Shown piece after piece: positions 7,737-37,299 of a stretch of DNA of 37,940 nt (its first letter is position 1; the number at the start of each line of letters is the position of its first letter). The notes beneath the pieces were generated by a model. The model saw nothing but the letters and a program-made list of their open reading frames with translations, ran no database searches and had not been told where the DNA came from. The translations under genes were made by a program, and so were the position numbers. The stretch is from an uncultured Burkholderiales bacterium (GTDB lineage: Bacteria; Pseudomonadota; Gammaproteobacteria; Burkholderiales; Burkholderiaceae_C): assembly GCA_903916355.1 (NCBI GenBank), contig CAIWWN010000198.1:1-37940 (forward strand), written 5' to 3'.

Positions 7737-7791
7737 AAACCTACTTTGAAGAAAACTACCACTTAAGTGATTGCTAATATGCAGCTTCAAT

Positions 7792-10686: not shown

Positions 10687-10696
10687 AACTTGATCC

Positions 10697-11584
10697 TTAA
10701 AAAATGTTGTCGGCTTGGCTTAACAACCATTGCGCACGTTCGCGCATGATTTGACTGGACAGGTCGCGCTTGCCCGCAGACACCTCGATGGCCTTGGTCA
10801 ACCAGGCTTCAAAGGACAGACGGTCTTGCTGATCGACCGCCCAGCCCTCTGCCTTCGCAACCCAGACGCCAGGGTTTTGCCCCTGACTGACTTGCATCGC
10901 TTGATCAAAATATTGCAAAGCACGGGGGCGTGAACCGCCAGGGCGTGCCAACTCCAACGTGCCCATCAAACTGGCCAAAGCGCCATTGCCATAACGCGGG
11001 TCAACCTGCCAGGCTTGGTGCGCCAGGGATGCCGCCAAAGGCAAATCAGCCACCACTTCGGGCGAGTCGGTCGACAGGGAAATCTGCCCGCCCCAAGCCG
11101 CCGCCGTCCAGTACGCCAAGCCCACGGCCTCTGGCTTGAGGGGTCTTTGTTTGACGCGCAAGGAAGGATCTATTGGCTTGAGTAAATCAGGGTCCTGGAT
11201 CATCAAGGTGCGAAGGCCCTGGTTCTTGGCGCGCTCAAACATGCGTGCCGCGCGTTCACGCAAGGCCTGTGCTTGTTGCAAGCTTTGGGACTCCACACGG
11301 TCCGCCTGCGTCGACAAAAAGGCGTAGGCATATTGCGTCAAGCCACTGGTCACAGATTGGGCCAAGGGCACATGTTGCGGCAAGGCCCGCAACATGCCCT
11401 CAGCGACTTTGAGGTAGAAAGCACTGGCTTCACGGGCCAAGCCAATGTCTTCTTCTTCAACCGATTGTTGTGATATTTCGTCGGCGGCCTGCTGCAATAA
11501 GTGGTGACCCACTGAACAAGCGGGCAAAGAACATAGCACCAAGGCCATCACAACCAGGGGCAAAAGACGATTTGAAAACAACAT
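10697..11584 (-). CDS. TatT-like lipoprotein of a TRAP system
   Basis: A 295-residue lipoprotein. Starting at 11584 gives a type II signal peptide with lipobox LPAC (Cys23); a TTG 17 codons upstream is possible but adds nothing sensible. The mature protein is all-helical with TPR-like helical pairs and the block LKPEAVGLAYWTAAAWG, matching the TRAP transporter TatT component family. In the Treponema system the trimeric TatT docks with the DctP-type protein and is thought to hand it ligand. It is first in a three-gene operon with the binding protein and fused permease, and is transcribed divergently from the Pho-box-led phytase-like gene, 194 bases away. Confidence 0.8.
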   Translation of the reverse strand: MLFSNRLLPLVVMALVLCSLPACSVGHHLLQQAADEISQQSVEEEDIGLAREASAFYLKVAEGMLRALPQHVPLAQSVTSGLTQYAYAFLSTQADRVESQSLQQAQALRERAARMFERAKNQGLRTLMIQDPDLLKPIDPSLRVKQRPLKPEAVGLAYWTAAAWGGQISLSTDSPEVVADLPLAASLAHQAWQVDPRYGNGALASLMGTLELARPGGSRPRALQYFDQAMQVSQGQNPGVWVAKAEGWAVDQQDRLSFEAWLTKAIEVSAGKRDLSSQIMRERAQWLLSQADNIF

Positions 11585-11678
11585 GCGATGAAGGAGACAG
11601 TTTGCGTGCAGCCAGCTCTTGAGTGGAACTTTCAAGTTATCAGCTCATTGTGAAAATTTCATTAAATTCAACTTGAAA

Positions 11679-13164: not shown

Positions 13165-14931
13165 ATGTCATTGTTTAAATCTCGCCGTCGTTTTCTGGCC
13201 ACCACCGCGGGTTCAGCTGGGGCCGTAGCCCTGGCCTCTTGAGGTTCAAGCGCAACCGACCCAGCAGAATTTTTGTACGGCGTCGCCAGCGGCGACCCCC
13301 TCACCGATCGGGTCATTTTGTGGACCCATGCCAAAGTCAAAGATCAAAACTACGACGTCTCTTTGCAATGGCAAATTGCCAAGGATGCTAACTTCACCAG
13401 CATGATCAACACAGGCTCTGTCACGGCCTTGGCCAGCGCTGGCTTTACCGCCAAGGTGGACGCCACAGGCTTGAGCGCAGGAAACACGTATTTCTTCCGA
13501 TTCCTGGACAGTACAGGTTCGGTGTCCAGCGTGGGCACCACACGCACTTTGCCCACAGCCACGGTGGCATCGGTGAAATTTGCGGTGTTCTCGTGCACGC
13601 TGTACTCAGAAGGCTTCTTCAACAGCTATGACGCTGCAACCACTTCAGGTGCTGAATATGCTTTGCATCTGGGTGACTACATTTACGAATACGGTTCTGA
13701 CGCCATCAAATTTGGCAACACCGATGCCGTCAAGTTAGACCGCGTCACCAGCCCGGCCAATGACATCGTGTCATTGAGCGACTACCGCACCCGCTACGCC
13801 AAATACCGGTCAGACGCATCTTTGCAAGCCTTGCATGCCAAGATGCCCTGGATCACCATTTGGGACGATCACGAGTTTGCCAACAACGCCTATATGGACG
13901 GCGCGCAAAACCACGACCCTGCCACCCAAGGTGCCTGGGTCGACCGTAAAAACACCGCGGCCCGCGTGTACCACGAGTGGATGCCAATTCGCACACCGGA
14001 TGCCGCCAACCTGTTGAAGATTTACCGTAATTTCGATTTCGGCACCTTGTTCAGCCTGCACATGCTGGACACCCGCATTGAAGGTCGGACCAAACAAAAG
14101 TATGGCTATTACGGTGATCCGTCGGACCCCAAAGTTCAGCCCTACACCTACGCCGATTACGTTACGGGTCTGACCCCGGTCAACGGCGTGTATCCTGACG
14201 CTGCCAACAAGATGATGAGCGACACTCAGTTGAGTTGGTTGACCACCAACATCGGCAAGTCCACCGCCACTTGGCAAATTGTGGGCAACCAGGACATCAT
14301 GGGTAAAATGTGGTTTCCCGCTTCTGTGGTGCAGGCTCAAAGCGTCAGTGCCACCGCATTTGGCAATGCTTTGACCGACTTCATCACGGCCAAAGCGGTG
14401 AATGCCGCAGCGCCCACGACGCTCAGCAACACCCAAAAAGCACTTCTTGCACAGCCGCGTTTACCTTACAACATGGACTCGTGGGACGGCTATCCGATCC
14501 AACGCGAAACCTTGTTGCAAACCATCCGGGCTACGGGCAAGAAATTGGTGGTTTTGTCGGGTGACTCGCATAACTCTTGGTGCAACAACCTCACCTCACT
14601 GGACGGAACCGCCACCATCGGCGTGGAGTTTGCCACCACCTCGGTCACGGCCCCAGGATTTGAAAGCGTCGGTTTGGGCACCCTAGGTCCTTACGTTGAC
14701 GGCAGCGGCAACCCCGCAGCACAAGGCAGTTTTGGTTCGGGCTTGGGTTTGATTGACGATGTGAACTATGCCGACTTGAACCGCCGTGGCTACATCTTGA
14801 TGACAGTCACCAACACTGACATCAAAGGTGAATTCGTCTTCATGGACACCGTCAAGTCCAAGACCTACAAAGCCAGCGTGGGCAAAACGGTCACTGTGGC
14901 AGCGGCCACCTTGCGTAAGAGTTTCACCTAA
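13165..14931 (+). CDS. phoD: PhoD-family phosphodiesterase/alkaline phosphatase with in-frame TGA at the lipobox cysteine
   Basis: A 588-codon gene with GAGGAA before the ATG. The N-terminus MSLFKSRRRFLATTAG is a twin-arginine signal, running to VALAS, then TGA (13240-13242, codon 26), then GSS. The expected lipobox is LAS-Cys-GSS, so the stop replaces the lipidated Cys. The remaining 562 codons are open and intact: YGVASGDPLTDRVILWT (PhoD N-terminal domain), CTLYSEGFF and HLGDYIYEYG, TIWDDHEFANN (metal ligands), WQIVGNQDIMG and LVVLSGDSHNSW. PhoD enzymes are Tat-exported, iron/calcium-dependent phosphatases. Either a recent nonsense mutation or sequencing error disables export, or the codon is read through. 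It shares a transcript with the phytase-like gene; its stop overlaps the convergent gene by four bases. Confidence 0.85.
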
Positions 14932-15401
14932 ATTGATGGGCCCACAGATTCAGGTGCTGCGGGCAGCACCTGAATCACAAAATAGCTGGGGCATTCATAC
15001 CGCTCAATGTCATAAGCGTTGAGCGGGAATGAGCCGCAATTGGAGAAGCGGCGCAGTGACGAATGGTAAATCCCGCACTGAAAGCGGCCATCTTCAATCG
15101 GCTGCAAAAACATGCAGCGCTTGTTCATGCAGCAATTGCCGCACTGAACACAGCTGCCGCCCATGGCCTGCGGCACTTGGCTGACACGACCCATCACATC
15201 TGAAAAATAATGAATCGCAGGTCCTTCGCGCATGGCCTGCATGTGGCGCCATATGTTCTTCAGGGTCTGTGGATATTCACTTATAAATCCAATACGCCAG
15301 AAAACCAAGGCGGCCAACAGCGGCAACAATGGAAAGAACAACAACAGACAAAAGAACAATAAATAGGTCAGCGCACCAGCAATCAATCGGTTCAATTTCA
15401 A
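14928..15401 (-). CDS. Membrane-anchored CxxCxxCC (YkgJ-like) protein
   Basis: A 157-residue protein with a long hydrophobic N-terminal stretch (about residues 8-36, one or two helices) followed by a cysteine cluster: CVQCGNCC near 83-90, then further Cys in KRCMFL, FQCGIYHSSLRRFSNCGSFP and YECPSY. This is the zinc- or iron-chelating UPF0153/YkgJ pattern, including the conserved R-x-x-C-x-x-FP-like segment. Function is unknown. No ATG precedes the membrane segment; an in-frame stop lies just upstream, so TTG at 15401 with CAGG ahead is the likely start. It ends convergently inside phoD, sharing four bases. A terminator lies between it and the upstream small gene, so it needs its own promoter. 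Confidence 0.75.
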   Translation of the reverse strand: MKLNRLIAGALTYLLFFCLLLFFPLLPLLAALVFWRIGFISEYPQTLKNIWRHMQAMREGPAIHYFSDVMGRVSQVPQAMGGSCVQCGNCCMNKRCMFLQPIEDGRFQCGIYHSSLRRFSNCGSFPLNAYDIERYECPSYFVIQVLPAAPESVGPSI

Positions 15402-15856: not shown

Positions 15857-15874
15857 ATGAAAGCTTGGTGACAG
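15857..15874 (-). promoter_or_regulatory. Pho box upstream of the small acidic gene
   Basis: On the minus strand CTGTCAC-CAAG-CTTTCAT: the first 7-mer matches the PhoB half-site fully (C/T allowed at the end), the second at 6 of 7. It is one of the two best boxes by eye in the window, 56 bases before the ATG at 15800 and only eight bases after the stop of the cytochrome b561 gene. Confidence 0.78.
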
Positions 15875-15881
15875 CGGAGAA

Positions 15882-16457
15882 TTATTGCAGCTCTGTGCTA
15901 TGTAAATTTTGCCAATTTGGCCACATGCGGCTCATCAAGCCGTCTTTGAGTTTCCAGTGATGCCAACAAACGGCCAGCATGTGCAACCCCGCCGCAGCGA
16001 GCAAGCCATTGGCCAGCCATTCATGCAGTTGCACGGCATTGCGGCGCAATTCTTTGTTGCCTGAATCAAAGGCCGGGACGATGAACAACTCAAACAAATT
16101 GTCGCCACGAATCCACACGGCAGCCAAGCCAGAAAGCACGAGCAAGCCGATCAGCACATACAGACCATGGTGGTAGCCATGGCTGAGTCGTCCGATCCAA
16201 CCTGTGTTGACGGATGGCAACTTCATGCCCCGAAATGCTCGCCAGTAAATTCGGTACATCCAAAAGAGGGCCAGCACCACACCCAAGGCAATGTGCGTGC
16301 TGCGAAACATGATTTTGGGCGTGCCGCGCGGCATGAAGTTGATGCACTGGCCTGCAATCCACAAACCAATGACCAGCAAAGCCACCAGCCAATGCAGCCA
16401 CACGGTTCTGCGGTCGTAAGCGCCGGTGTCAATGGTATTCATGTGAATCTGGCTCAT
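15882..16457 (-). CDS. Cytochrome b561-family membrane protein
   Basis: About 191 residues with four predicted membrane helices. Haem-ligand candidates are the His in VWLHWLVALL (helix 1), THIALG (helix 2) and the pair in the last helices (LHEWLANG and LHMLAVCWHH). The family moves electrons across the inner membrane between quinol and a periplasmic acceptor. I chose ATG 16457, one base after the upstream stop (TGAAATG), implying coupling; an ATG at 16481 would overlap the previous gene by 23 bases and one at 16442 is also possible. It is last in an operon after a purple-acid-phosphatase-like enzyme, whose di-iron centre might need reduction; that link is inference. Confidence 0.87.
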   Translation of the reverse strand: MSQIHMNTIDTGAYDRRTVWLHWLVALLVIGLWIAGQCINFMPRGTPKIMFRSTHIALGVVLALFWMYRIYWRAFRGMKLPSVNTGWIGRLSHGYHHGLYVLIGLLVLSGLAAVWIRGDNLFELFIVPAFDSGNKELRRNAVQLHEWLANGLLAAAGLHMLAVCWHHWKLKDGLMSRMWPNWQNLHSTELQ

Positions 16458-16458
16458 T

Positions 16459-17844
16459 TCATTGACAACGACTTTTGCCATTTTGAATATGACAACGGAT
16501 CACGGCTTGGCCTTGCGGCGTGTATTCGGTCAACTGCCAAGACTCTTGCCCAGACAAAAAGGTGCGATCCAAAGTGGCAAAGCCGTATTCAGACCTTGAA
16601 GCGTAGTTGTCCACCACTGCCGTCTTGTAGATCCGATCCGTGGGCGCAATCGCATGAGGCGCATGGCCCTCGTTCAAGGAACCGGAATTGCCCATGACCA
16701 ATGAGACCGGGTGATTGGACTGGAAACTGATGGCTTCAAACAAATGCACATGACCGTGCATGGCCACTGTGACACCTGCAGGGAAGAGTCTGTCTGGCAC
16801 CACAGTCTCGAATACCGACTGCAAGCCTGCACTGCCTCCGGATTTGAATTTTTTAGGATCTTTACCCGGCGCTGCGGCCAGCAAGGGGTGATGGTTGATG
16901 AAGAAGCTCTCGGGCTTGAGCTTGGCCAATTGCGCTGCGATGTTCAGTTGCGACTTGTACTTGGTAAAAGCGGGATCAGCGGGGTTGTAGGCCTTGCCAC
17001 TCGATTTAGCAGAGTCAAACACAATGAACTGCGCTTGCTCTGAAATAGCGGCTGTAAATGGCTCAGAAAAATCACCCTGCAGGTCGTTGGCAGGCTCGTT
17101 GCAATTGCGCGCTGCTGTGTAAGGCGAAGCATCCAGAAAGCGAAACCAGCCCTGTCCCGCGCGGAAACACGACTCGTGGTTGCCACGCACAAACAACCAA
17201 GGCGCACTCGCCAGCAAGGGTGCTGCAGGTTGAAAGAAGTCATCGCGCCAAGCGTCCCAGCCATAGCCCCAGCTCGCATTCGCGCAACCGATGTTGCCCT
17301 GAGGGCAAGGGCTTTCTCGGTAATGCACATCACCAATGTGCACCACCAAATCGGGCTTGAGCTTGGCCGCGCTCTGGGCAATTTGGGCGAATGGCCATTT
17401 GTCTGCGTCGTTGCACTCTTGAAATGAGTTCTCAGAGGCTTTCATTCGGCAACCGGTATCGGCCACGATCAAGATGCGTTGGATCTGCTTGGGCGGCGCG
17501 GGAACCACCTGACCCTCAATGCGAGCCGACTGGGCTTGCGCGGGCCAAGTGGCCTCGCAGCTCGTGACGTCAAACACGGCGGGTTTGCTGTCAGCTTGGG
17601 CTGCGTCACTGCGTACAGGCAAAGTGGCTTGAGTTGCACGCACCTGCATGGCCACGGGCAAATGCCCGTCCCAGGCGATGCTGGGGCATTGGGCTGCGTG
17701 CGTCAAAGCACGAACCACCCATTGCCCCTGCGGCGCTTGCACGGTGTAGACAGATTCCAACTCAGAGGCAGACGCCTCAAGCGCGCTGATAGCCGCGAAC
17801 AGCAACACACACGCAGACCATTCGCGTGACCCTGTATTTTTCAT
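16459..17844 (-). CDS. Exported metallophosphoesterase with purple-acid-phosphatase motifs
   Basis: A 461-residue enzyme with a signal peptide (about 1-27) and AAAGG before the ATG. An N-terminal domain (28-120) precedes the calcineurin-like domain, which shows all five purple acid phosphatase blocks: DTG (Asp129), GDVHY (Asp172 and Tyr175), GNHE (Asn222, His223), INHH (about 316-319) and HGHVH (His363, 365, 367). In PAPs the GDxxY tyrosine ligates Fe(III) and gives the purple colour; ordinary metallophosphoesterases lack it. It should hydrolyse phosphate esters in the periplasm. It follows tonB by 30 bases and precedes a cytochrome b561 gene in a Pho-box-led operon. Substrate is not readable from sequence. 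Confidence 0.88.
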   Translation of the reverse strand: MKNTGSREWSACVLLFAAISALEASASELESVYTVQAPQGQWVVRALTHAAQCPSIAWDGHLPVAMQVRATQATLPVRSDAAQADSKPAVFDVTSCEATWPAQAQSARIEGQVVPAPPKQIQRILIVADTGCRMKASENSFQECNDADKWPFAQIAQSAAKLKPDLVVHIGDVHYRESPCPQGNIGCANASWGYGWDAWRDDFFQPAAPLLASAPWLFVRGNHESCFRAGQGWFRFLDASPYTAARNCNEPANDLQGDFSEPFTAAISEQAQFIVFDSAKSSGKAYNPADPAFTKYKSQLNIAAQLAKLKPESFFINHHPLLAAAPGKDPKKFKSGGSAGLQSVFETVVPDRLFPAGVTVAMHGHVHLFEAISFQSNHPVSLVMGNSGSLNEGHAPHAIAPTDRIYKTAVVDNYASRSEYGFATLDRTFLSGQESWQLTEYTPQGQAVIRCHIQNGKSRCQ

Positions 17845-17874
17845 AACAACCTTTGAAGGCCAAGCGGCCTGAAA

Positions 17875-18588
17875 TTAAAAGCAGGCGACCCAGATTTGGT
17901 ACACGCCGTCTTTACCCGCCAAGGCGGGCGGTGGCGGTGGAAAGGCGGCAGCCTCTACCGCTTTGAGCGCGGCACGGTCCACTGCCCCCAAACCGCTGGG
18001 CTGGATGATTTTGGCGTTGCTGGCCACTCCATCACGCAGATGAAACTCCACCCGCGCCCGGCCCTTAAAGCCCAGCGCAGAAGCCGGGCCCGGCACTAAA
18101 AATGCGGCTTGCACGGCAGCAGCCAGTTTGAAGTTATAGGCCAAGGCTGGATCCACGGCGGGTGCCGGTGGACTGACCACTGCAGGCGGCGGCGTCGATG
18201 GTGCGGAAGCAACTGCAGGCGTAGAAAAAGCGGTGGGTTGCGCCACGACGGGAGGCGTTATGTCTTGCACCGGTCGCACTTCAGGGGTCACAGGGGATTG
18301 AGGCTTGGGTGGCGCAAGCGCCACTTTGGCCGGCACAGGAGGTGATTTAACCTCTGGTGGCTTAGGCGGCAAGGGCTTATCAACCTTGGGCTCTTCGAGC
18401 ATGGACATCACCAACGGGATGACTTGCTCCAGTTCCTGCGGCGGGTGCAAGAGCACCCAGACCATCACCGCCCCCACCACACCCAACTCAATCAACAGCG
18501 CTGAGCCCAGCGAAGACCAAACGCCTTGGGGTGGCTTGCTTTTCGAGGTGGGTGCCCACACCGGCAGGCTGTTGAAGGTGGCGCTCAA
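17875..18588 (-). CDS. tonB: TonB energy-transducing protein (cluster 2)
   Basis: A 237-residue TonB: cytoplasmic N-terminus, one membrane helix (about 27-47), a long Pro-rich spacer with KPP and PPP repeats (about 65-145), and a TonB C-terminal domain (about 150-237) with GFKGRARVEFHLRDG and GAVDRAALKAVEAAAFPP. The start is TTG at 18588, overlapping the exbD stop (TTGA), with AGGTG five bases before it; no better start exists downstream before the membrane helix. It should couple the adjacent ExbB/ExbD to the receptor at the head of the operon. The two clusters' TonB proteins differ strongly in spacer and domain, so they look dedicated rather than duplicated. Confidence 0.87.
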   Translation of the reverse strand: MSATFNSLPVWAPTSKSKPPQGVWSSLGSALLIELGVVGAVMVWVLLHPPQELEQVIPLVMSMLEEPKVDKPLPPKPPEVKSPPVPAKVALAPPKPQSPVTPEVRPVQDITPPVVAQPTAFSTPAVASAPSTPPPAVVSPPAPAVDPALAYNFKLAAAVQAAFLVPGPASALGFKGRARVEFHLRDGVASNAKIIQPSGLGAVDRAALKAVEAAAFPPPPPALAGKDGVYQIWVACF

Positions 18589-18980
18589 CGCGGCACCTGT
18601 TTGGCAGCCAAACCAATTTGCGTGGCGCCGCCCAAGCGAACCGCGTCCACAGCTTTCATCAAGTGCTGCATGGACGCATCGTCACTGCCGGCAATGGTCA
18701 CGGCCAAATTAGCAGGGTCACGTGCTTTGACCAAGGCGGTAATTTCGGCAGGCTCTGCGTCATGGCCTTCGACCAACAACTGACCGTTGGAGCGAATTTC
18801 CACCATCAACTTAGGCGGTGGAATCGCAATGGCCGTGCTACTGGTAGGCAACTTGCTGATCTGGCCTGATGTGGGAATCATGCGCAACGTCATCATGGCA
18901 AAAAAGACCAGCAAAAACAGCATGATGTCGATCATCGGAATGATCTCGATCCGCGCCTTGCGCGTTTCAAAATACCGCAT
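18585..18980 (-). CDS. exbD: ExbD biopolymer transport protein (cluster 2)
   Basis: A 131-residue protein with a short cytoplasmic N-terminus, a single helix (about 12-32) carrying the conserved Asp of IIPMIDIMLFLLVFF that takes part in proton flow, and a periplasmic domain ending AVDAVRLGGATQIGLA. It works with ExbB to energise TonB. It starts one base after the exbB stop (TGAGATG) and overlaps tonB. It is the only complete exbD in the window, so it may also serve the first TonB cluster, whose exbD is truncated. Confidence 0.9.
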   Translation of the reverse strand: MRYFETRKARIEIIPMIDIMLFLLVFFAMMTLRMIPTSGQISKLPTSSTAIAIPPPKLMVEIRSNGQLLVEGHDAEPAEITALVKARDPANLAVTIAGSDDASMQHLMKAVDAVRLGGATQIGLAAKQVPR

Positions 18981-18981
18981 C

Positions 18982-19638
18982 TCAAACGGCCTTCAAAGTG
19001 GCGCGGGTACCTGTGGACTGATGGCGACCAAAGCGACGATTCAAAATCATGACTTTGATGATTTCCATCTGGTGCACAATCATGCGCACTTTGGTGTTGA
19101 GCCAGTTGAAGAAGACCAAACCGATCATGGCAATCATCAAACCCGAAGCCGTGGCAATCAAGGCCTCAGCAATGCCACCCGTGACTTGGCCCGCACCATT
19201 TTGAACATCGCCCAGCACAGAGAATGCACCGAACATGCCAATGATCGTGCCAAACAAGCCCAACAGCGGCGCCAGGGTGATCACCGTGTCCAGCACCCAC
19301 AAGGATCGGTCCAAGGTGGGCACTTCGCGCATGATGGCTTCTTCCAAGTGACCGGCACACACATCACGCTCGGAGGTGTCAGGCTCGATCAGCGAAGCAT
19401 GCACCACGCTGGCGTGGGGCAAGTTCTCATACTGCTGCAAGGCTTTTAACAAGACTTCATGGTCCATGGCCGAGCCGTCGTGCAACAAGTCGATGAGGCT
19501 GTCACCGTCTTGCTGCATTTTGGACAGATAGCGGCTTCGCTCGATGATGACCGTCAAGGCCACCAACATGAGCAAAGCCATCAGATACAGCGTTCCGCCA
19601 GAGGCGTTGGCCAGATCAAACAGCTTGCTGGGCGTCAT
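18982..19638 (-). CDS. exbB: ExbB proton channel protein (cluster 2)
   Basis: A 218-residue MotA/TolQ/ExbB protein with three membrane helices (about 14-34, 112-135 and 150-175). Its family block VITLAPLLGLFGTIIGMFGAF is near 118-138. It forms the inner-membrane proton channel with ExbD. It begins two bases after the receptor stop and ends one base before exbD, so expression is tightly coupled to the receptor. In contrast to cluster 1, exbB and exbD are adjacent as usual. Confidence 0.9.
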   Translation of the reverse strand: MTPSKLFDLANASGGTLYLMALLMLVALTVIIERSRYLSKMQQDGDSLIDLLHDGSAMDHEVLLKALQQYENLPHASVVHASLIEPDTSERDVCAGHLEEAIMREVPTLDRSLWVLDTVITLAPLLGLFGTIIGMFGAFSVLGDVQNGAGQVTGGIAEALIATASGLMIAMIGLVFFNWLNTKVRMIVHQMEIIKVMILNRRFGRHQSTGTRATLKAV

Positions 19639-19640
19639 GT

Positions 19641-21887
19641 TCAGAAGTCAGCTTTGGCCGAAATCATCATGCTGCGCGGCGCTTGCCACTGGTACTGTGT
19701 CGTGGCAGAAGTCAGCGGCCCAGTCACACCCACGATTTGCTGTGAATTGGTCACGTTGAAGACGCTGAGCTGAATCTTCAGAGCCTTGACGTTGTCCATG
19801 TTGCGGAAGGTATAACCCACGTTCAAGTCGGCATTGTTGATGGCATTCAACTGACCCAACAACTTGGCGTTGTACTGCTCGCCAATGTGCTTGTAAAGCA
19901 AAGAGGCCGTCCAATCACCCAGGTTGTAAATCGCACCAAAAGCCGTGGTGACCTTGGGTGCATTAGGCACCTGACCGGTTGGCTGACCTGCTGCCGCATT
20001 GGAGGCGCTGTAGTCGGCCAAGTTGTAACCAAAGTTGGCAAATGCAGACCAACCATCACCCAACATATAGGCGGCTTGACCTTCAACGCCTTTGTACAGG
20101 GCGCCACCGACGTTGGTGAACTGTGGGTTCGCATTGGTACCCGTGTTGAGCTGCATATTGTTCATGGTGATGTAGTACAAATCACCATCAATCGTCAAGC
20201 GATCCGACTTGTGCACCGCACCGACTTGGTAGTTGGTGGTGGTCTGTGGGTCAGGACGCGTTCCAGTGGTTGTGCCGACGCCAATGAACGGCACTTGCAT
20301 GCCCTTGGCATATTGAGCGTAGAGCGAATTCTGTTCGTCCAATTTTTTGTTGACCGTCAGGAATGGCAAAGATGCTTTGTAGTTGTTGTTGTATGACTGT
20401 GCCGTCAACGCCTTTTGGTTAAACGCCGAGTCCAGGTGGAAGTTGTAATTCATCGCCTTGTAGCCCGGTGTGATCGTCAAACCAGGTGCAGCAGCCCACT
20501 CAAACTCAACGAATGGCTGGATTTGGCTCCAGCTTGAATTTTGTTGGGTGAAGTTGGTGGTGGTCACAATGCCTGTTGGGTAGGCGGATGTTGCACCGGC
20601 CAGCACATTGCCGGTGACCATGTCGGCTTCCATGTTGTGACGATCTGTTTTGGAGCCTTCATACCAAGCACCCACACGCAACAAACCGTTGTCAAGATTT
20701 TTGGTGGCCTTGAGAATGTCACCCCATACGCGGTAGGAGTTCAACTTGTGATAGCCAGGCACGCCGCCGTTAGGCAACGTCACTGAAGTACCCAACAGAT
20801 TCTTCACGGACATCGACGAATCGGCCGTGCCGTTGAATTTCGAAGGGTCTTGGCCTGCCTCGGTAAAGTTGGCGTAGGCGTAGGTGTAGGTTTGGTTATC
20901 GGTTTGCCAGCCATTGGCCCAGGTGGTCTGCAGACGAACGTAATCCATGTCCGTGGTCTTGGTGGCTGTGTTGTAGCCGTAAAAACCTTGGCTGGCTGGG
21001 TTGCTGTTCATCACATAGTTTTTACCCAGTACAGCCACTTGCGCCATGGTGGGGCCTGATGCGTTGTCGGTGACGTTGGACTTGACCTTGTTGGCACTGC
21101 CAAAGATCGTCATCAATGTCGAATCACCCAAAGGGCGCTGGTACTTCACAGTCAGGTTGTTGTTGTCCATCGGCGAGTTCGACAGATAGCCAGTGGCGGC
21201 CATGTTCTGAGCATTCACTTGCAAGGTGGCGTCGCTGCCCTCCATGCGGCCGCTTTCATAAGAAATGCCTTCCAGGCGAGTGCCCCAGTTGCCCAGTGCG
21301 CCGTACACGCTGGTCTGCTTGGTTTGCGAGGGCGCCTTAGAGAACAAGTTGACACTACCGCCATAGGTCGAGTAACCCACGTTGCTGGCGTTACCTGGAC
21401 CACGGTCAATCACCATGCCGCCGATCACTGAAGCTGGAAAATAGGACGTGGAGTGGTGCGTAGGGCCGTTGCTGTCGCCAAAGGGGATGCCGTCAAAGGT
21501 GACGTTGTATTCACCGTCTTGGAAACCGCGCAGCGACATTTTTTGGTCCGCCATGCCAGGGCCGTTGGTGGAGGGCATAGAGGCGACGCTGGGTGCAATG
21601 GCCAAGATGGTGTTGAAGTTGCCTGTAGGCGGTGTGGAATCTTCAATGAAAGCGCGTGAAACGATCGACTGAGGCTGCGTTGCACTCAGGCTGGCTTGCG
21701 TTGGCGCCACAGATGCGGCCGTACCGCGCTCTGCCTTGACCGAAACCGTCGAACCTGCAGCGCCACTGGCACCCACAGTACCAAGATCTACAGTGTCGGC
21801 GAATGCCGCACCACCCACAGAGGTGATGAAGGCCAAAGAGACCAATTGAGCCAGGCGTTGTGGCTTAGGGGCAGAAGTTTTGAGCAT
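19641..21887 (-). CDS. TonB-dependent outer-membrane receptor (cluster 2, Pho-box led)
   Basis: A 748-residue receptor with signal peptide ending near GGAAFA (about residue 30). The plug domain (about 60-190) shows ILAIAPSVASMPSTNG, KMSLRGFQDGEYNVTFDGIP and VIDRGPGNASNVGYSTYGGS; the remainder is a 22-strand-type barrel ending MISAKADF, with a terminal Phe. It imports a substrate too large for porins. It heads the operon receptor-exbB-exbD-tonB-phosphatase-cytochrome b561, and a Pho box lies about 100 bases upstream, so a phosphate ester or another substrate needed during phosphate starvation (possibly iron) is likely. No clear Shine-Dalgarno precedes the ATG; the leader can instead fold over the start region. 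Confidence 0.92.
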   Translation of the reverse strand: MLKTSAPKPQRLAQLVSLAFITSVGGAAFADTVDLGTVGASGAAGSTVSVKAERGTAASVAPTQASLSATQPQSIVSRAFIEDSTPPTGNFNTILAIAPSVASMPSTNGPGMADQKMSLRGFQDGEYNVTFDGIPFGDSNGPTHHSTSYFPASVIGGMVIDRGPGNASNVGYSTYGGSVNLFSKAPSQTKQTSVYGALGNWGTRLEGISYESGRMEGSDATLQVNAQNMAATGYLSNSPMDNNNLTVKYQRPLGDSTLMTIFGSANKVKSNVTDNASGPTMAQVAVLGKNYVMNSNPASQGFYGYNTATKTTDMDYVRLQTTWANGWQTDNQTYTYAYANFTEAGQDPSKFNGTADSSMSVKNLLGTSVTLPNGGVPGYHKLNSYRVWGDILKATKNLDNGLLRVGAWYEGSKTDRHNMEADMVTGNVLAGATSAYPTGIVTTTNFTQQNSSWSQIQPFVEFEWAAAPGLTITPGYKAMNYNFHLDSAFNQKALTAQSYNNNYKASLPFLTVNKKLDEQNSLYAQYAKGMQVPFIGVGTTTGTRPDPQTTTNYQVGAVHKSDRLTIDGDLYYITMNNMQLNTGTNANPQFTNVGGALYKGVEGQAAYMLGDGWSAFANFGYNLADYSASNAAAGQPTGQVPNAPKVTTAFGAIYNLGDWTASLLYKHIGEQYNAKLLGQLNAINNADLNVGYTFRNMDNVKALKIQLSVFNVTNSQQIVGVTGPLTSATTQYQWQAPRSMMISAKADF

Positions 21888-21960: not shown

Positions 21961-21988
21961 CCTATTAAGTCACCGCTGCGGCATTTTT

Positions 21989-22006
21989 ATGAAGTTTTCA
22001 TGACAC
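21989..22006 (-). promoter_or_regulatory. Pho box upstream of the TonB-receptor/phosphatase operon
   Basis: On the minus strand GTGTCAT-GAAA-ACTTCAT: the first 7-mer matches the PhoB half-site at 6 of 7 positions, the second at 4 of 7, with the usual 4-base spacer. It lies 101 bases before the receptor ATG and 16 bases after the stop of the PhnZ-like gene. TTAATA about 15-20 bases downstream could be a -10. Confidence 0.6.
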
Positions 22007-22022: not shown

Positions 22023-22574
22023 TCAGATGCAAGCCTGATTTAAATAGTATTCAAAGTGCACCAGAGAAGGCACAACCTTCAGCGGCGTTTTGGCCAAATC
22101 GTCGTAGCGACGCAGCCGCACGGCCTCCGCAGCGTAAGGCTGGAGCATGAAGACCTCCGCCTCAGCCTCGGTAAACAGTCCGCCTTGCTGTTCCAAGCTG
22201 TGCTTGGAGGCAGGCGATAACTCGGCCCAATAGCCTGGATCGATCAGGCACAAATAGCGTTTGGCGTCCACATGCATGCGGATCGGTTCCAGCACGGCGT
22301 CGGTGAACAAGCCCCGTAAAAACGGCAAGGCCATGAACTGATGCAGGTCGTCCTTGCGGGTGTCGATTTCTTGTTGCCCTAGACCTTGAGCCACCAGCAT
22401 ATGGCCAAGATCGTGCAGCAAGGACGCGGCAATGGTCTCGGCAGTTTCCCCTGCTTTCTCGGCCAGGTCCGCGCACTGCAAAGCATGTTCCAACTGACTG
22501 ACCGCCTCCATGCCGTATTGGTTTTGACCGTGGTTTTGTAAAAGATCAGTGACTTGCGACAGGGTCAGGGACAT
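22023..22574 (-). CDS. PhnZ-type HD-domain oxygenase, phosphonate cluster
   Basis: A 183-residue HD-domain protein of the phosphonate-degradation HD group. Every PhnZ active-site residue I recall has a counterpart at a steady offset: Tyr20 and Glu23 (QYGMEAV), His30 (QLEHALQCA), His54-Asp55 and His58 (LLHDLGH), His101 and Lys105 (HVDAKRY), and Asp158 (RRYDD). PhnZ is a mixed-valent di-iron oxygenase that splits 1-hydroxy-2-aminoethylphosphonate into glycine and phosphate. Its usual partner PhnY, which makes the hydroxylated substrate, is not in the window. A GAGGTG site precedes the ATG and nine bases separate it from phnE, so it is the last gene of the phnCDE unit. Its substrate here is open. 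Confidence 0.83.
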   Translation of the reverse strand: MSLTLSQVTDLLQNHGQNQYGMEAVSQLEHALQCADLAEKAGETAETIAASLLHDLGHMLVAQGLGQQEIDTRKDDLHQFMALPFLRGLFTDAVLEPIRMHVDAKRYLCLIDPGYWAELSPASKHSLEQQGGLFTEAEAEVFMLQPYAAEAVRLRRYDDLAKTPLKVVPSLVHFEYYLNQACI

Positions 22575-22582
22575 GAGGCACC

Positions 22583-23389
22583 TCAGACAAAAAATTGGCG
22601 AATACGGGATGAAATCAAATCAATCAAACTGACCGTGACAATGATGATCAGCATCACCGCACTGGTCTCGGCGTACTGAAATCCGCGAATGATTTCCCAC
22701 AGCACCACACCGATACCGCCCGCCCCGACCATACCCACCACGGTGGCTGAGCGCACATTGGACTCGAATCGGTACAAGGCAAATGAAATCCACAAGGGCA
22801 TGACCTGCGGAATCACACCGTACACAATTTCATGCAAAGCCGTGGCCCCGGTAGAACGGATGCCTTCGACCGGCTGAGGGTCGATGGCTTCGACCGCTTC
22901 AGAAAACAACTTGGCCAAGATGCCGGTGGTATGTATCCACAAGGCCAAGACCCCGGCAAAAGGCCCCAGGCCCACGGCCACGACAAACAGCATGGCGAAC
23001 ACCATCTCATTGATGGCGCGGCATGCGTCCATCACGCGGCGCACCGGCTGGTAGACCCACCAGGGCACGATATTGGAAGAAGCCAGGAGACCCATGGGTA
23101 TGGCAGAGACGACGGCCAAGGCTGTGCCCCACAACGCGATCTGCAAGGTCACCCGCATCTCGTCCAGGTAGATGCGCCAGTGGCCAAAATTAGGTGGGAA
23201 AAATTCCGCCGCATAGGCTTTCATATTGCCCGAGTCGCGCCACAGCTCCATAGGCCGCATGTCCGCTCCTTGCCAAGACCAGGCCAGCAGGGCCAGCAAG
23301 GCGCCCCAGCACAAATACCAACTGAGGCTACGCTGGGAGACAGCGGACTCGGCCAAGGCCTGCATCTTCAAATTGGCGGAGGTAGACAT
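22583..23389 (-). CDS. phnE: Phosphonate ABC transporter permease
   Basis: About 268 residues, six predicted membrane helices, with the ABC-permease EAA region [20 protein letters not shown] in the middle and [19 protein letters not shown] near the end, both typical of PhnE. It forms the membrane channel for PhnD-delivered phosphonates, powered by PhnC. I start it at ATG 23389, with GACGG upstream; a GTG at 23404, just after the phnD stop, would add five residues. It follows phnD by about 20 bases and precedes the PhnZ-like gene. Confidence 0.9.
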
Positions 23390-23409
23390 GCGAAGTACCG
23401 TCACAGAAC

Positions 23410-24354
23410 TTATTTCAAGGCAGCCAATTGCTGATCGATTTCAATCAGTTTGGTCTTTTTGTCAGCGTCAGACAGGGTGGTGTCAGCGTCGATTTTGTTG
23501 CGCTTACCAAACAAGTCCAATTGGCGAATCGGCTTGAGTTGGTCGTTGGTCGACGCTTTAAAGCCCGACAATTTCGAAATCTTCATGACAATTTCTTTTT
23601 CACGCGCGTCGGTTTTGGCGTAGTTGTAGAAGAAGTTTTTGATCTTCGTCTTGGTCGCTTCAGGCAAGCCCTTGCTGAACACCAAGGGGTCCAAGGCGAT
23701 CAGTGGGGAAGTCCAGATGACTTTGATGTCTTTGACTTTTTCAGGTTGACGCCCTTGGAGCTTTTCCAAGTTTTCGCTGTTGTTGGTCGCCACATCGACT
23801 TGCTTGTTGGCTACGGCCAAGGCATTGGTTTCGTGGTTAGCGCTGCGCATCACTTTGAACAGTGTTTTGGGGTCTTGCTTGTTTTGTGCAAACACATAAA
23901 AACTAGGCACCAAGAAGCCTGAAGTGGAGTTCGGGTCACCGTTGCCAAAGCTCAAGTTCTTGCCGTTTTTGAACATGTCGTCCAGGTTGTTGATCGGGCT
24001 GTCTTTGTGCACGATCAGGTGCGAGTAATAACCTTGTGTGCCATCGGCGTTGACCATTTGCGCAAACACTTCAGCGTTAGAACGGTCCACAGCCTCCATG
24101 GCCGACTTGTTGCCCATCCAGGCCAGCTGCACTTTGTTAAAGCGCATGCCTTCGATGATGCCGGCGTAATCGGTGGCAAAGAAAGCCTTGACCTTCAGAC
24201 CGGTTTGCTTTTCCATGTCGTCAATCAGCGGCTGCCAATCGGACTTGATGTTTTGGCTGGACTCTGTCGAGATAAAGCCAAAGCTGATGTCTTGCGCCAT
24301 GGCGCCCGTCAAACTTAGGCCCAAGGCCAGTGCGGTCAGTGATTTTTTGAACAT
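23410..24354 (-). CDS. phnD: Phosphonate ABC transporter substrate-binding protein
   Basis: A 314-residue periplasmic protein with signal peptide [20 protein letters not shown]. The start at 24354 has GGAGA seven bases upstream; the longer frame is unrelated sequence before the signal peptide. The mature sequence begins [20 protein letters not shown] and carries the PhnD blocks [30 protein letters not shown] and [14 protein letters not shown]. PhnD binds alkylphosphonates such as 2-aminoethylphosphonate for import. It lies between phnC (38-base gap) and phnE. Confidence 0.93.
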
Positions 24355-24392
24355 AGTTGGATCTCCAGCAGATTTAAAAGTAAAAGAGAAAT

Positions 24393-25247
24393 TCAAGCCA
24401 TCTGGGCGACGGGCGCAGCCCATGCCAAGACTGGCGCAGTGTCTTGCGCAGAAACTGAGGTGAGCAACTCGCTGCCACTCAAAAATTCATCGGCTTGCAT
24501 GCCGTACAACTCGCGCAGCAATGCAGGCGTCAAGTTGGATGACAGCCCGTCATAGACCACCTGGCCTTGATTCAGCGCAATCACGCGCGGGCAATAGCGA
24601 ATGGCCATGTCCACCTGGTGCAAAGAGACCACGACGGTACGGCCATCTTCACGCTGGATGCGCGTCAAAATTTCCATCACATTGCGTGACGATTCGGGAT
24701 CGAGGGAGGCAATCGGTTCATCGGCCAACACCAGTTTGGCGCCTTGCACCAAGGTGCGCGCAATCGCTGCGCGCTGCTGTTGCCCGCCAGACAAGGTTGA
24801 CGCACGTTGTCCGTGGCATTCCAAAATGCCTACACGTTGTAAAGCTTCCAGCCCCAACGTACGCTCATGCGCATTGAACCAACGCAGCACGCCACGCCAC
24901 AGTGGCATGCAGTGCAAACGCCCCACCAACACATTGACCAGCACGGGCAAACGGTCGACCAAATTGAATTGCTGAAAAACAAAGCCCACTTGCGAGCGAA
25001 GGCTGCGAATGTCACTGGCAATGCGACCGTCCCGTTGCACGCAGTGTCCGTTCACTTCAATCAAAGAACCTGCGGCGGCATCGGCGGGTAAAAGGCCTGC
25101 GATCATGCGCAGCAAGGTGGACTTGCCTGAACCTGAGGCGCCGATCAAGGCCACCATTTCGCCCTCACCAATACTCAGATTGATGTCGCGCAAGGCGTGT
25201 TTCCCGTTAGGAAAATGTTTGTCTAAATTTTGGATCTTCAGTGCCAT
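24393..25247 (-). CDS. phnC: Phosphonate ABC transporter ATP-binding protein
   Basis: A 284-residue ATPase: Walker [10 protein letters not shown] (about 36-44), Q-loop [14 protein letters not shown], signature [13 protein letters not shown] (about 155) and Walker B LVLADEP. The [17 protein letters not shown] segment is typical of PhnC. It powers phosphonate import through PhnE. It heads phnCDE plus the PhnZ-like gene. Upstream are a Pho box (25297-25314) and a candidate PhnF operator (25266-25276), so it is probably activated by PhoB and repressed by PhnF. Confidence 0.93.
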
Positions 25248-33696: not shown

Positions 33697-35049
33697 TCAG
33701 AGTTCAGACGCCAGAGCCAAAGCCGCTTCAGTTTCGATTTTGACCCTGGCGCTGGGGAAAACCAAGGAAAAACAAGAACCCGCGCCCACTTCACTTTGAA
33801 CATGGAAACTGCCGCCATGTCGCTGAACAATGTGCTTGGTAATCGCCAGGCCCAAGCCCGTGCCACCCGACTCACGCGAGCGGCTGCGGTCCACCCGGTA
33901 AAAGCGCTCAGACAAACGCGGCAGGTGCTCGGGGGCAATGCCCACGCCGTCGTCTTTGACCTTAAATTGAGCCTGCCCCTCAGTGTCCAAGGCCCAGACC
34001 ACATCGATCTTGCCGCCCGCAGGCGTGTAACGCACCGCGTTATTGACCAAGTTGGACACCGCGCTGTGAATTTCCGCGCGGGAGCCCAAGACGTGCAAGT
34101 GATCGGGCAAAGCAAACGTCAAGGTATGGATCGGCAAGCCTTCATCGCTTTGCAAAGCCGACAGCGCCACCGCATCGGATTTGACCTGCGCCATCAAGGG
34201 CTTCAAGTCCACCGCTTCGGTCACCGGCGGCGGTGGGCTGCCTTCCAATTGCGACAAGGTCAGCAAGTCACTCACCAAGCCTTGCATGCGATGGGCTTGA
34301 ACCGCCATCAAATCCAAATATTGACGCTGCTCCTCGGGACTCAAGGGCAGGGATTGCAAGGTCTCGACGAAGCCGGCCAGCACCGTCAACGGGGTGCGAA
34401 TTTCATGGGAGACATTGGCCACAAAATCACGCCGCATCTGGTCGGCCTGCGCACGCGCCGTGACGTCACGGGTCAGCAGCAATCTTTTATTTTCACCGTA
34501 GGGGTGCAATTGCAGTTGCAATTTGAGCAACTGCGAAAACGAATTCGATCGGCCATCGATGATTACTTCATTGCTGTAATCTCCTTGGGCCACATAGCGC
34601 GTGAACGCCGGGTCACGCACCAGGTTACCAATGTGTTGGCCCAAATCGCGTTGTTCGTGCAATCCCAGGTGAGCTGCCGCAGTTTGGTTACACCACTCAA
34701 TGCGGCCTTCTTCATCGAGCAGCAAAACACCGTTGGGCGAGGCCTGGATGGCAGACAAAAATTCTTGCAACCGTTGCCGGTGTTGGGTTGCCGATTGATC
34801 GCGTATTTTGTAGCCCCGGCGAATGCGGTCCAACAATTCGCCCCAAAACCCTGTCAATTTGATCAGAGAATGGGGTTCCCCTTGTCGCAGCCATTTTTCC
34901 AATTGGTAGCCACGAACATAGTCGAGCACCAGCAAGGCAAACAAGGCACCGTTGATAGAGACCCAGAGCCCTGAACTACCGGCCAGCCAAAAGCCGCAAG
35001 TCGCTGTGACCAACAGGATAAAAAGGGCGAAAAGCAATCGAGACAACAT
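33697..35049 (-). CDS. phoR: Phosphate regulon sensor histidine kinase
   Basis: A 450-residue membrane kinase: two close helices (about 4-46), a linker, a PAS domain (about 95-190), HisKA with phosphorylated His215 in VANVSHEIRTPLTVLAGF, and an ATPase domain with N-box SNLVNNAVRYTP, DDGVGIAPEHLPRLSERFYRV and GGTGLGLAI. This is the usual PhoR layout without a large periplasmic sensor. It phosphorylates PhoB under phosphate limitation with input from Pst and PhoU. It follows phoB by 41 bases. Confidence 0.95.
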   Translation of the reverse strand: MLSRLLFALFILLVTATCGFWLAGSSGLWVSINGALFALLVLDYVRGYQLEKWLRQGEPHSLIKLTGFWGELLDRIRRGYKIRDQSATQHRQRLQEFLSAIQASPNGVLLLDEEGRIEWCNQTAAAHLGLHEQRDLGQHIGNLVRDPAFTRYVAQGDYSNEVIIDGRSNSFSQLLKLQLQLHPYGENKRLLLTRDVTARAQADQMRRDFVANVSHEIRTPLTVLAGFVETLQSLPLSPEEQRQYLDLMAVQAHRMQGLVSDLLTLSQLEGSPPPPVTEAVDLKPLMAQVKSDAVALSALQSDEGLPIHTLTFALPDHLHVLGSRAEIHSAVSNLVNNAVRYTPAGGKIDVVWALDTEGQAQFKVKDDGVGIAPEHLPRLSERFYRVDRSRSRESGGTGLGLAITKHIVQRHGGSFHVQSEVGAGSCFSLVFPSARVKIETEAALALASEL

Positions 35050-35090
35050 CGAGGCAGGATACCCTAAGAACCGGAAAAACTCAGTTCAAA

Positions 35091-35807
35091 TCAAGCTGAT
35101 TTGAGCTGGGTCGCGGCCAGCGGGGTCGTTGTAACCCGGTAGCCTGCACCTCGAACGGTTTCCACCATGATGCCGGCCTCACCCAACGACTCTCGCAGTC
35201 TCTTGACGTGCACATCCACCGTGCGCTCTTCGATGAACACATGGTCACCCCAGACGCGGTCCAGCAGCTGGCCCCGGCTGTGCACGCGTTCAGCATGGGT
35301 CATCATGTATTGCAGCAGCTTGAACTCTGTGGGTCCGATTTTCAACAACTGGTCCTGGTAACTCACGCGGTGGGTATCGGCGTCCAGCACCAAGTCGCCT
35401 AAACGCACGGCCCCGCCCGCCTGCTCGGGCGCACGGCGACGCAATACTGCGCGAATGCGGGCCAGCAATTCTTTGGTGGAGAAGGGTTTGACAATGTAGT
35501 CGTCTGCCCCTGCATCCAAACCGGCCACGCGGTCAGGCTCATCCCCCCGCGCCGTGAGCATCAAAATCGGCACTGTTTTGGTCCGCGCTGTGGCGCGCCA
35601 TTTGCGCGCCAGCGTCAAACCACTTTCGCCCGGCAGCATCCAGTCCAGCAAAATCACATCGGGCAAGACGTCGTCCAATTCACGCTGGGCGGTTTCACCG
35701 TCCATCGCCCAAATGGGTTGAAAGCCGTTATGCCGGAGGTTCACCGCGATCAACTCGGCAATCGCCGGTTCATCTTCGACGATCAAGATGCGGGGCAGTG
35801 TTTTCAT
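35091..35807 (-). CDS. phoB: Phosphate regulon response regulator
   Basis: A 238-residue OmpR-type regulator: receiver with acidic pocket (about 11-13), phosphoacceptor Asp55 (VILLDWMLPGESG) and Lys in IVKPFSTKELLARI, then a winged-helix DNA-binding domain (about 135-230) with RVHSRGQLLDRVWGDHVFIEERTVDVH, the PhoB recognition region. It should bind the Pho boxes noted in this window. Its ATG overlaps the phoU stop (ATGA) and phoR follows. Confidence 0.96.
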   Translation of the reverse strand: MKTLPRILIVEDEPAIAELIAVNLRHNGFQPIWAMDGETAQRELDDVLPDVILLDWMLPGESGLTLARKWRATARTKTVPILMLTARGDEPDRVAGLDAGADDYIVKPFSTKELLARIRAVLRRRAPEQAGGAVRLGDLVLDADTHRVSYQDQLLKIGPTEFKLLQYMMTHAERVHSRGQLLDRVWGDHVFIEERTVDVHVKRLRESLGEAGIMVETVRGAGYRVTTTPLAATQLKSA

Positions 35808-36502
35808 TTGACGAAGGATTCGATATCAGCCAAAGAGGTATGCCGAACGTCTGCGCCTTTGACCACATAGATGGTGAATTCCGCAATGTTCTTGGCATGG
35901 TCACCAATGCGTTCAATCGCTTTGGCAATGAACAACAGGTCCAGGCTGGCCGAAATGGTGCGAGGGTCTTCCATCATGTAAGTGACCAATTTGCGCACAA
36001 AGCCGTCAAACTCGGTGTCAATCAAATCGTCTTCTTTTAAGATGGCAATGGATGCGGTCACGTCCAAGCGGGCAAAGGCATCAAGAGCTTTGCGCAGCAA
36101 ACCCGAAGCCAGGTCAGACGCCACGCGCAGCTCTGAAGCGGGCAAGGATCTCGATGAACCACTGTCCACAATGGCCTTGACCATACGTGCGATTTTTTCG
36201 GCTTCATCACCCACTCGCTCTAGGTTGGCGGTGGTTTTGGAGATGGCGATCAACAAACGCAGGTCTACGGCCGTGGGCTGGCGCCGAGCGATGATGGACG
36301 AGAGTTCGCGATCGATTTCGACTTCCATCTTGTTGACTTCAGCCTCGGTGTTGATCACCTGCTCGGCCACTTCGGTGCTGAATTGCGAGAGCGCATACAC
36401 CGCATGGCGGATTTGTGACTCCACCAAACCACCAAGTTCCAACACACGGCTAGACACATTGGTCAGTTCGGCATCAAATTGGCTGGAGATGTGTTTTTCC
36501 AT
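35804..36502 (-). CDS. phoU: Phosphate signalling protein PhoU
   Basis: A 232-residue all-helical protein with two three-helix PhoU repeats. It starts MEKHISSQFDAELTNVSSRVLE and carries the metal-binding-type motifs ERVGDEAEKIARM (about 95) and ERIGDHAKNIAEF (about 200). PhoU links the Pst transporter to PhoR and represses the regulon when phosphate is abundant. It lies 14 bases after pstB and overlaps phoB. Confidence 0.96.
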   Translation of the reverse strand: MEKHISSQFDAELTNVSSRVLELGGLVESQIRHAVYALSQFSTEVAEQVINTEAEVNKMEVEIDRELSSIIARRQPTAVDLRLLIAISKTTANLERVGDEAEKIARMVKAIVDSGSSRSLPASELRVASDLASGLLRKALDAFARLDVTASIAILKEDDLIDTEFDGFVRKLVTYMMEDPRTISASLDLLFIAKAIERIGDHAKNIAEFTIYVVKGADVRHTSLADIESFVK

Positions 36503-36516
36503 GAGTCTCTTTCTGA

Positions 36517-37299
36517 TCAGCCGAAACGGCCAGTAATGTAATCTTCGGTTTCTTGGCGGGTGGGTTTCATGAAGATGGATTCGGTTGGACCGTATTCAAT
36601 CAATTCGCCCAGGTACATGTAAGCGGTAAAGTCTGACACACGGGCAGCTTGCTGCATGTTGTGCGTGACGATCACCACGGTGTACTCACTCTTGAGGGTG
36701 TGCACCAATTCTTCCACTTTACCGGTCGAGATCGGGTCCAAGGCCGAGGTGGGCTCGTCCAGCAACAATACCGAGGGCTTGACCGCAATGCCGCGCGCAA
36801 TGCACAGGCGCTGCTGTTGACCGCCCGACAATGACAAACCGCTTTGGTTCAATTTGGATTTGACTTCGTTCCAGATGGCGGCTTTTTGCAATGCCCATTC
36901 GACCCGATCGTCCATGTCGCTGTTCGACAGGTTTTCGTACAAGCGCACGCCAAAGGCGATGTTGTCGTAAATCGACATGGGAAACGGCGTGGGCTTTTGA
37001 AAGACCATACCGATGCGCGAGCGCAGCAAATTCAAATCTTGCTTGGGGTTGAGAATGTTCTCGCCATTGAAATTGATTTCGCCTTCGGCGCGTTGACCCG
37101 GGTACAGGTCGTACATGCGATTCAAGGTGCGCAGCAAAGTGGATTTGCCACAACCTGATGGGCCAATGAAGGCAGTCACCGTGTTGGCCTTGATGTCCAG
37201 GTTGACATTTTTCAGACCTTGGAAGGCGCCGTAGTAAAAATTCAGATCGCGAATTTCGAGCACGTTTTTCGCGGGTGAAGCTGATGGGTTTGTGATCAT
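36517..37299 (-). CDS. pstB: Phosphate ABC transporter ATP-binding protein
   Basis: A 260-residue ATPase with Walker [10 protein letters not shown], the PstB-specific [23 protein letters not shown], signature [13 protein letters not shown] and Walker [14 protein letters not shown]. It powers high-affinity phosphate import with PstA/PstC. It starts two bases after the pstA stop and precedes phoU. Confidence 0.97.

Follow-up and report, generated by a model that had tools for sequence, protein, structure and literature searches.

A TonB-system and purple-acid-phosphatase-like operon within a phosphorus gene cluster of an uncultured Burkholderiales bacterium

The 37,940-nucleotide stretch of contig CAIWWN010000198.1 (GenBank assembly GCA_903916355.1) from an uncultured freshwater Burkholderiales bacterium, here called the window, carries an operon of six open reading frames (ORFs), all on the minus strand between positions 15882 and 21887. 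These encode, in order, a TonB-dependent receptor, ExbB, ExbD, TonB, a purple-acid-phosphatase-like enzyme (PAP) and a cytochrome b561, and are separated by gaps of 2, 1, -4, 30 and -23 nt, in keeping with the tight co-directional packing described in the original prediction, which was made from the sequence alone. ExbB, ExbD, TonB and the plug and barrel of the receptor pass their Pfam cut-offs and constitute a complete TonB system; the window ExbB and ExbD miss the NCBIfam exbB, exbD, tolQ and tolR equivalog cut-offs. The operon sits inside a phosphorus gene cluster (Table 1): on its upstream side the same strand carries C-P lyase genes, phnG and phnI among them, and PhoD, a phytase-like esterase and an alkaline phosphatase are encoded downstream.

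Judged by gene order in relatives, receptor-exbB-exbD-tonB-PAP is a real, conserved unit. A survey of 131 loci, in two sets of 80 and 51 with slight overlap, shows the full order in 21 loci, labelled Comamonadaceae, Sterolibacterium, Gallionella, Sideroxydans and Methylobacillus, among others; three further loci have receptor-PAP followed by exbB, and 12 have tonB-PAP with less in view. The predicted joining of a TonB system to a PAP-like enzyme thus recurs, and five of the six genes keep their order, but the sixth does not: b561 stands after PAP in just 6 of 129 sequences, those of the window, four close relatives (L020-L023) and the distant L081, representing two lineages. (The 129-sequence set is the 131 loci without the partial L029 and the near-identical L169 and L148, and with the window added.) Of the 129 PAPs, 36 have same-strand TonB-system genes no more than 2.5 kb away, 35 have a receptor of the modelled kinds, and 45 have one or the other; as a control, among the other ORFs of more than 300 aa in these loci, 36 of 708 have TonB-system genes nearby, a count that takes in the exbBD genes of Duganella-like loci, whose position about 5 kb from PAP is constant.

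The PAP family is patchily distributed. It is present in 36 of 399 genomes drawn evenly from the order, 14 of 150 in the family, 9 of 90 in the genus and 2 of 369 in the class, each tally counting the window's own genome as a match, and TonB genes stand beside PAP in 13 of 36 loci fetched from order-sample genomes other than that of the window. The 129 leave out eight further loci of the genus: seven carry PAPs identical to those of L020-L025 and L027, while the remaining one, L264, is partial and probably corresponds to L029.

Table 1. Positions of the operon genes, their upstream elements and neighbouring phosphorus genes in the window.
Feature	Position	Strand	Evidence
TonB-dependent outer-membrane receptor, 748 aa	19641..21887	-	Pfam cut-offs met: barrel PF00593, plug PF07715
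ExbB-type proton channel subunit, 218 aa	18982..19638	-	PF01618, 106.5 bits
ExbD-type subunit, 131 aa	18585..18980	-	PF02472, 71 bits
TonB, 237 aa, 4 nt overlap with exbD	17875..18588	-	PF03544, 27 bits; TIGR01352 above cut-off
Purple-acid-phosphatase-like enzyme (PAP), 461 aa	16459..17844	-	metallophosphatase PF00149, 41 bits; metal ligands
Cytochrome b561	15882..16481, start may be 16457 or later	-	PF01292, 90 bits
5' leader, long hairpin potential ending just before receptor start codon	21889..21962	-	fold z = -4.2
Pho-box-like direct repeats GTGTCATGAAAACTTCATAAAAATGCCGC, upstream of receptor gene	21978..22006	-	consensus and matrix tests
Phosphonate-degradation HD-domain oxygenase, upstream of operon	22023..22574	-	TIGR03276 above cut-off
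phnE, phnD, phnC phosphonate transporter	22583..25247	-	TIGR01097, TIGR03431, TIGR02315 above cut-off
phoR, phoB, phoU, pstB	33697..37299	-	PF11808, TIGR00972; TIGR02154, TIGR02135 above cut-off
PhoD-type phosphatase	13273..14931	+	PF09423, 316 bits

The five sequence blocks originally predicted to mark the enzyme as a PAP are all present, at D129 (ADTG), GDVHY (171-175), GNHE (221-224), H318 and GHVH (364-367). Pairing by motif order sets the window ligands D129, D172, Y175, N222, H318, H365 and H367 against D135, D164, Y167, N201, H286, H323 and H325 of the kidney-bean enzyme (PMC2267794), and these seven residues, including the chromophoric Tyr, are kept without exception in an alignment of 50 sequences and across the larger set of 129. 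The structure model matches the plant type of PAP fold with its N-terminal beta domain and its closest folds are plant PAPs; kidney-bean PAP (PDB 1kbp/6hwr) shares the seven ligands and the fold over model residues 24-460, but with about 14% identity, and the window enzyme is bacterial and encoded in an operon with a TonB system. A PDB search with the single window PAP sequence gave no match and one with a PAP profile gave a weak match to PAPs (E = 0.006); the N-terminal PAP domain PF16656 was not matched at E <= 0.001, a result bearing on one domain model and not on the ligands or the fold. Visual inspection of the N-terminus and of the many conserved Cys residues suggests that the enzyme is exported.

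Pho-box-like direct repeats lie about 119 nt 5' of the receptor gene and recur in near relatives. The match is weak in the window alone (p = 0.07) but reaches p = 0.004 when combined with four near relatives, using first-order Markov resamples as the shuffled sequences. This site ranks eighth over both window strands, the seventh being an overlapping match on the opposite strand; similar or better scores occur 5' of the phytase-like gene, phnC, phnG and the small ORF after b561, and scores of that level also inside phoD and before an unclassified ORF at 7790. A plain-consensus test of 135 nt upstream missed the L029 site at -146, which a matrix test over 200 nt found. The operon directly follows phoB and phoR in L022, and one opposite-strand ORF separates it from phoB/phoR in L027; both regulators exceed their equivalog cut-offs in each case. 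Pho control of the operon, as originally proposed, is therefore likely, because of its genomic position and the recurring Pho-box-like site. Two-component genes also adjoin the operon elsewhere, upstream of the receptor in L080, L081, L082, L084 and L088 and divergently in L079, and TTCA-type repeats with approximately 11-bp spacing and ending in TAAGTC are seen by eye before the receptor in L080, L081, L082, L084 and L088. Between b561 and a 106-aa ORF, which matches no known family and has kin in L021 and L023, stands the Pho-box-like site that ranks second in the window (CTGTCACCAAGCTTTCAT, at 15857).

A reasonably likely interpretation is that this is a PhoB-controlled phosphate-starvation operon for the uptake and dephosphorylation of phosphate esters. 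PhoB would activate the operon under phosphate starvation, and the receptor, powered by the ExbB-ExbD-TonB motor from the same operon, would take a phosphorylated compound across the outer membrane; the PAP-type phosphatase would then release phosphate in the periplasm for import by the Pst system, and b561 would serve as a membrane electron carrier, an optional addition that tends to accompany the receptor/TonB cassette. Several observations weigh against such a scheme. The solved structures nearest to the receptor carry PQQ and ferric citrate, not phosphate esters; 84 of the 129 PAPs stand without adjoining TonB-system genes or a recognised receptor (some of these contigs are truncated, and some receptors fall outside the models used), so that PAP can probably work without the cassette; no receptor was found beside exbBD-tonB-PAP in L131, L138 and L143; and the two-component system adjacent to the operon in L079, L080 and L084 scores best as QseBC/PmrAB, below cut-offs, in three non-PhoBR cases which suggest that control may differ by lineage.

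Comparison with related cassettes, found by an ExbB search and drawn from the best 30 genomes, bears on both the cargo and the role of b561. Eight of these 30 loci, the window among them, have PAP in view, and in seven with no visible PAP, tonB is immediately followed by b561 (the L214 b561, called by a looser model and not by a later one, is left out of the seven). Other phosphorus enzymes lie by related cassettes, including a type I phosphodiesterase (L253:8073-9578), metallophosphatases (L245:1337-2581 and L246:1124-2245) and a PAP2 protein (L254:10102-10884), and in a tree of 49 ExbB sequences the PAP, b561 and other-phosphatase cassettes are interleaved. These links to phosphatases are the main reason for thinking that the cassette carries phosphate esters. 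At the level of whole genomes, PAP is encoded elsewhere in 9 of 22 genomes with a related exbB but no adjoining PAP, compared with the 36 of 399 in the order sample, a co-occurrence that is no more than suggestive, as the samples share lineages.

The receptor could instead import ferric or other metal complexes that b561 reduces, the metal then feeding PAP or general needs under phosphate limitation. By profile, the nearest solved relative of the receptor is PqqU/YncD (102 bits to 9c4o and 6v81), its relatives also include FecA, and PAPs are iron enzymes (PMC2267794); among the cassettes lacking PAP, where longer DNA was fetched, L250 (5239-6110) and L252 (8568-9444) end in b561 and a PepSY protein. 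However, the window receptor falls well short of the siderophore-receptor family cut-off (70.9 against 223.5 bits), other phosphatase families adjoin some of its cassette relatives, and no Fur-box-like site stands upstream of the receptor, whether the window is combined with its four near relatives (p 0.99) or all 16 upstream regions are taken together (p 0.98), L252 alone having one (p = 0.03). The original prediction left the cargo as either ester or iron; since the window receptor has no Fur-box-like site upstream, the evidence leans towards the ester, and we consider a metal module of this kind unlikely. The structure model of the receptor is of middling confidence (pLDDT 71.6). A YncE-like beta-propeller gene adjoins PAP in four loci (L081:12020-13057, L084:7771-8874, L088:11322-12449 and L091:8915-9931), the resemblance in L081 being a weak Pfam match below cut-off; the receptor resembles YncD/PqqU, whose E. 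coli gene neighbours yncE.

The start of b561 is uncertain: L023 lacks the listed ATG at 16481, which gives a 23-nt overlap with PAP, and starts at M9 (16457) or M14 are as likely. Among eight genus PAP loci with a readable 3' side, window included, b561 follows in five, phoX in two and neither in one, and on this alternation and the low overall count b561 was rejected as a fixed PAP partner. It was also rejected as a random cassette neighbour: the seven b561-ending cassettes among 30 compare with none of 28 other background b561 loci, taken from the window's own genome and the loci listed for 20 relatives, a subset of the matches in those genomes. This background comprises 29 recognised loci out of 32 (L199, L200 and L204 were left out because the b561 model found no ORF), and of these only the window's own b561 has a PAP, TonB-system or receptor gene in its flanks (about 1.5 kb). 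By these neighbourhood counts, b561 is associated more closely with the TonB cassette than with the phosphatase. Four of the seven genomes with a b561-ending, PAP-less cassette hold PAP elsewhere, which speaks against a clean separation of b561 from PAP and would be compatible with an unlinked partnership; the other three have none at E <= 1e-30. The genomes of the L250 and L252 cassettes (G769 and G556) are among those with PAP elsewhere. The window b561 groups tentatively with those of L251 and L252, on a long branch with support of 0.87, and the b561s of L205 and L206, with no TonB neighbour in view, fall in the same part of the tree; the L081 b561 does not group with that of the window, and the PAP-b561 pairs therefore probably arose twice.

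Alignment with the E. coli superoxide oxidase CybB shows that H13, H45, H137, H151, H87, H158, D164, R35 and R108 are kept in the window b561, which thus matches at the haem-ligand and quinone-site residues. H13, H45 and H137 are three of the four haem ligands. The cationic superoxide site is incomplete, with R35 and R108 kept, R38 replaced by Lys, R30 by Ile and K134 by Val, and the CybB equivalog cut-off (NF008566) is missed (56.9 against 170 bits); for the residues other than these three haem ligands, roles follow PMC11869295. The residues fit electron exchange with quinone and, in part, the CybB superoxide site. One possibility is that b561 acts as a superoxide:quinone oxidoreductase that, during operation of the cassette, guards either the envelope or the metal site of PAP from superoxide; the kept CybB residues speak for this, and a b561-lipocalin operon against lipid peroxidation offers a precedent (PMC9113575). 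With R30 and K134 of the superoxide site replaced and the equivalog score so low, we regard this role as rather unlikely.

The original prediction also held that b561 might keep the enzyme active, sending electrons across the inner membrane to hold the PAP di-iron site half-reduced. Adjoining genes in the window, its four close relatives and L081, their probable twofold origin, the retained His and quinone-site residues, and the presence of PAP elsewhere in four of the seven genomes described above all speak for such coupling. But the pairing is rare, phoX takes the place of b561 in two genus genomes, b561 occurs after PAP-less TonB blocks with three of those genomes lacking PAP at the stated threshold, and the studied superoxide oxidase runs electrons the opposite way, from superoxide to quinone (PMC11869295). 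The premise of the prediction, that PAPs need the Fe(III)-Fe(II) state to be active, is also drawn too widely: the kidney-bean enzyme, one of the plant PAPs to which the fold is closest, has an Fe(III)-Zn(II) centre (PMC2267794). We therefore consider this coupling very unlikely; it is possible in the window's clade, yet not what the comparison suggests.

In one separate PAP clade (16 of 129 sequences, e.g. L070:11215-12534) a MauG-like di-haem peroxidase directly follows PAP, with PF03150 confirmed by Pfam for L070 only and the other 15 loci called by a custom model. None of the 16 has a same-strand TonB block beside PAP, though seven carry TonB-system genes 1.5 to 7 kb away on the other strand. 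A broader and distinctly unlikely scenario is that receptor-exbB-exbD-tonB is an exchangeable Burkholderiales chassis for envelope enzymes (PAP, other phosphatases, b561 with PepSY), in which haem proteins (b561 here, the MauG-like peroxidase in the other clade) would tune a redox-sensitive PAP metal site so that phosphate release follows the redox state of the envelope.

The preferred reading, a phosphate-ester uptake operon, has counterparts among described systems. Bacteroidetes are described as using organic phosphorus in a receptor-coupled way, their PUS loci encoding phosphate-starvation-induced TonB-dependent receptors beside phosphatases or phosphodiesterases (PMC8115612). PUSI and PUSII have SusC/SusD pairs (PMC8115612), whereas the window cassette has its own exbB-exbD-tonB and a PAP, and none of its six genes matches the SusD family in Pfam; the operon is best read as analogous to the PUS loci and different in its parts. 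In Sphingobium fuliginis a phosphorus-releasing organophosphate hydrolase is tied to ExbB/ExbD/TonB, with organophosphate as a phosphate source, but that enzyme is a phosphotriesterase, the proteins were co-purified, and the available text of PMC7142613 describes no such operon. A Flavobacterium phoX-MauG operon likewise pairs a phosphatase with a haem redox enzyme, but it joins PhoX to a di-haem peroxidase and parallels the PAP-peroxidase clade rather than the window (PMC8812569). The lcoA-bcnA genes of Burkholderia cenocepacia encode a b561 with an exported partner, which is a lipocalin, and no phosphatase or TonB genes are mentioned in the available text of PMC9113575. As the original prediction supposed, no paper on this gene set appeared among the matches listed in a search of open-licence papers, a weak negative. 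If true, a conserved Burkholderiales counterpart that pairs a dedicated TonB motor with a plant-type PAP would represent a new phosphorus uptake route in freshwater and soil, and the cassette family provides a concrete set for testing the metals and redox behaviour of a bacterial PAP.

Among the various other features, the hairpin potential of the receptor leader is seen also in L021 (z = -3.1) and L027 (z = -3.7) and more weakly in L022 (z = -1.5); an Rfam scan of the window gave zero matches at the gathering threshold. A TRAP transporter with a T-component (7820-11635) is encoded between the phytase-like gene and phoA, with Pho-box-like sites near it at 11650 and 7792. Downstream of b561, a Cys-rich 157-aa ORF (14928-15401) is kept in L020-L023.
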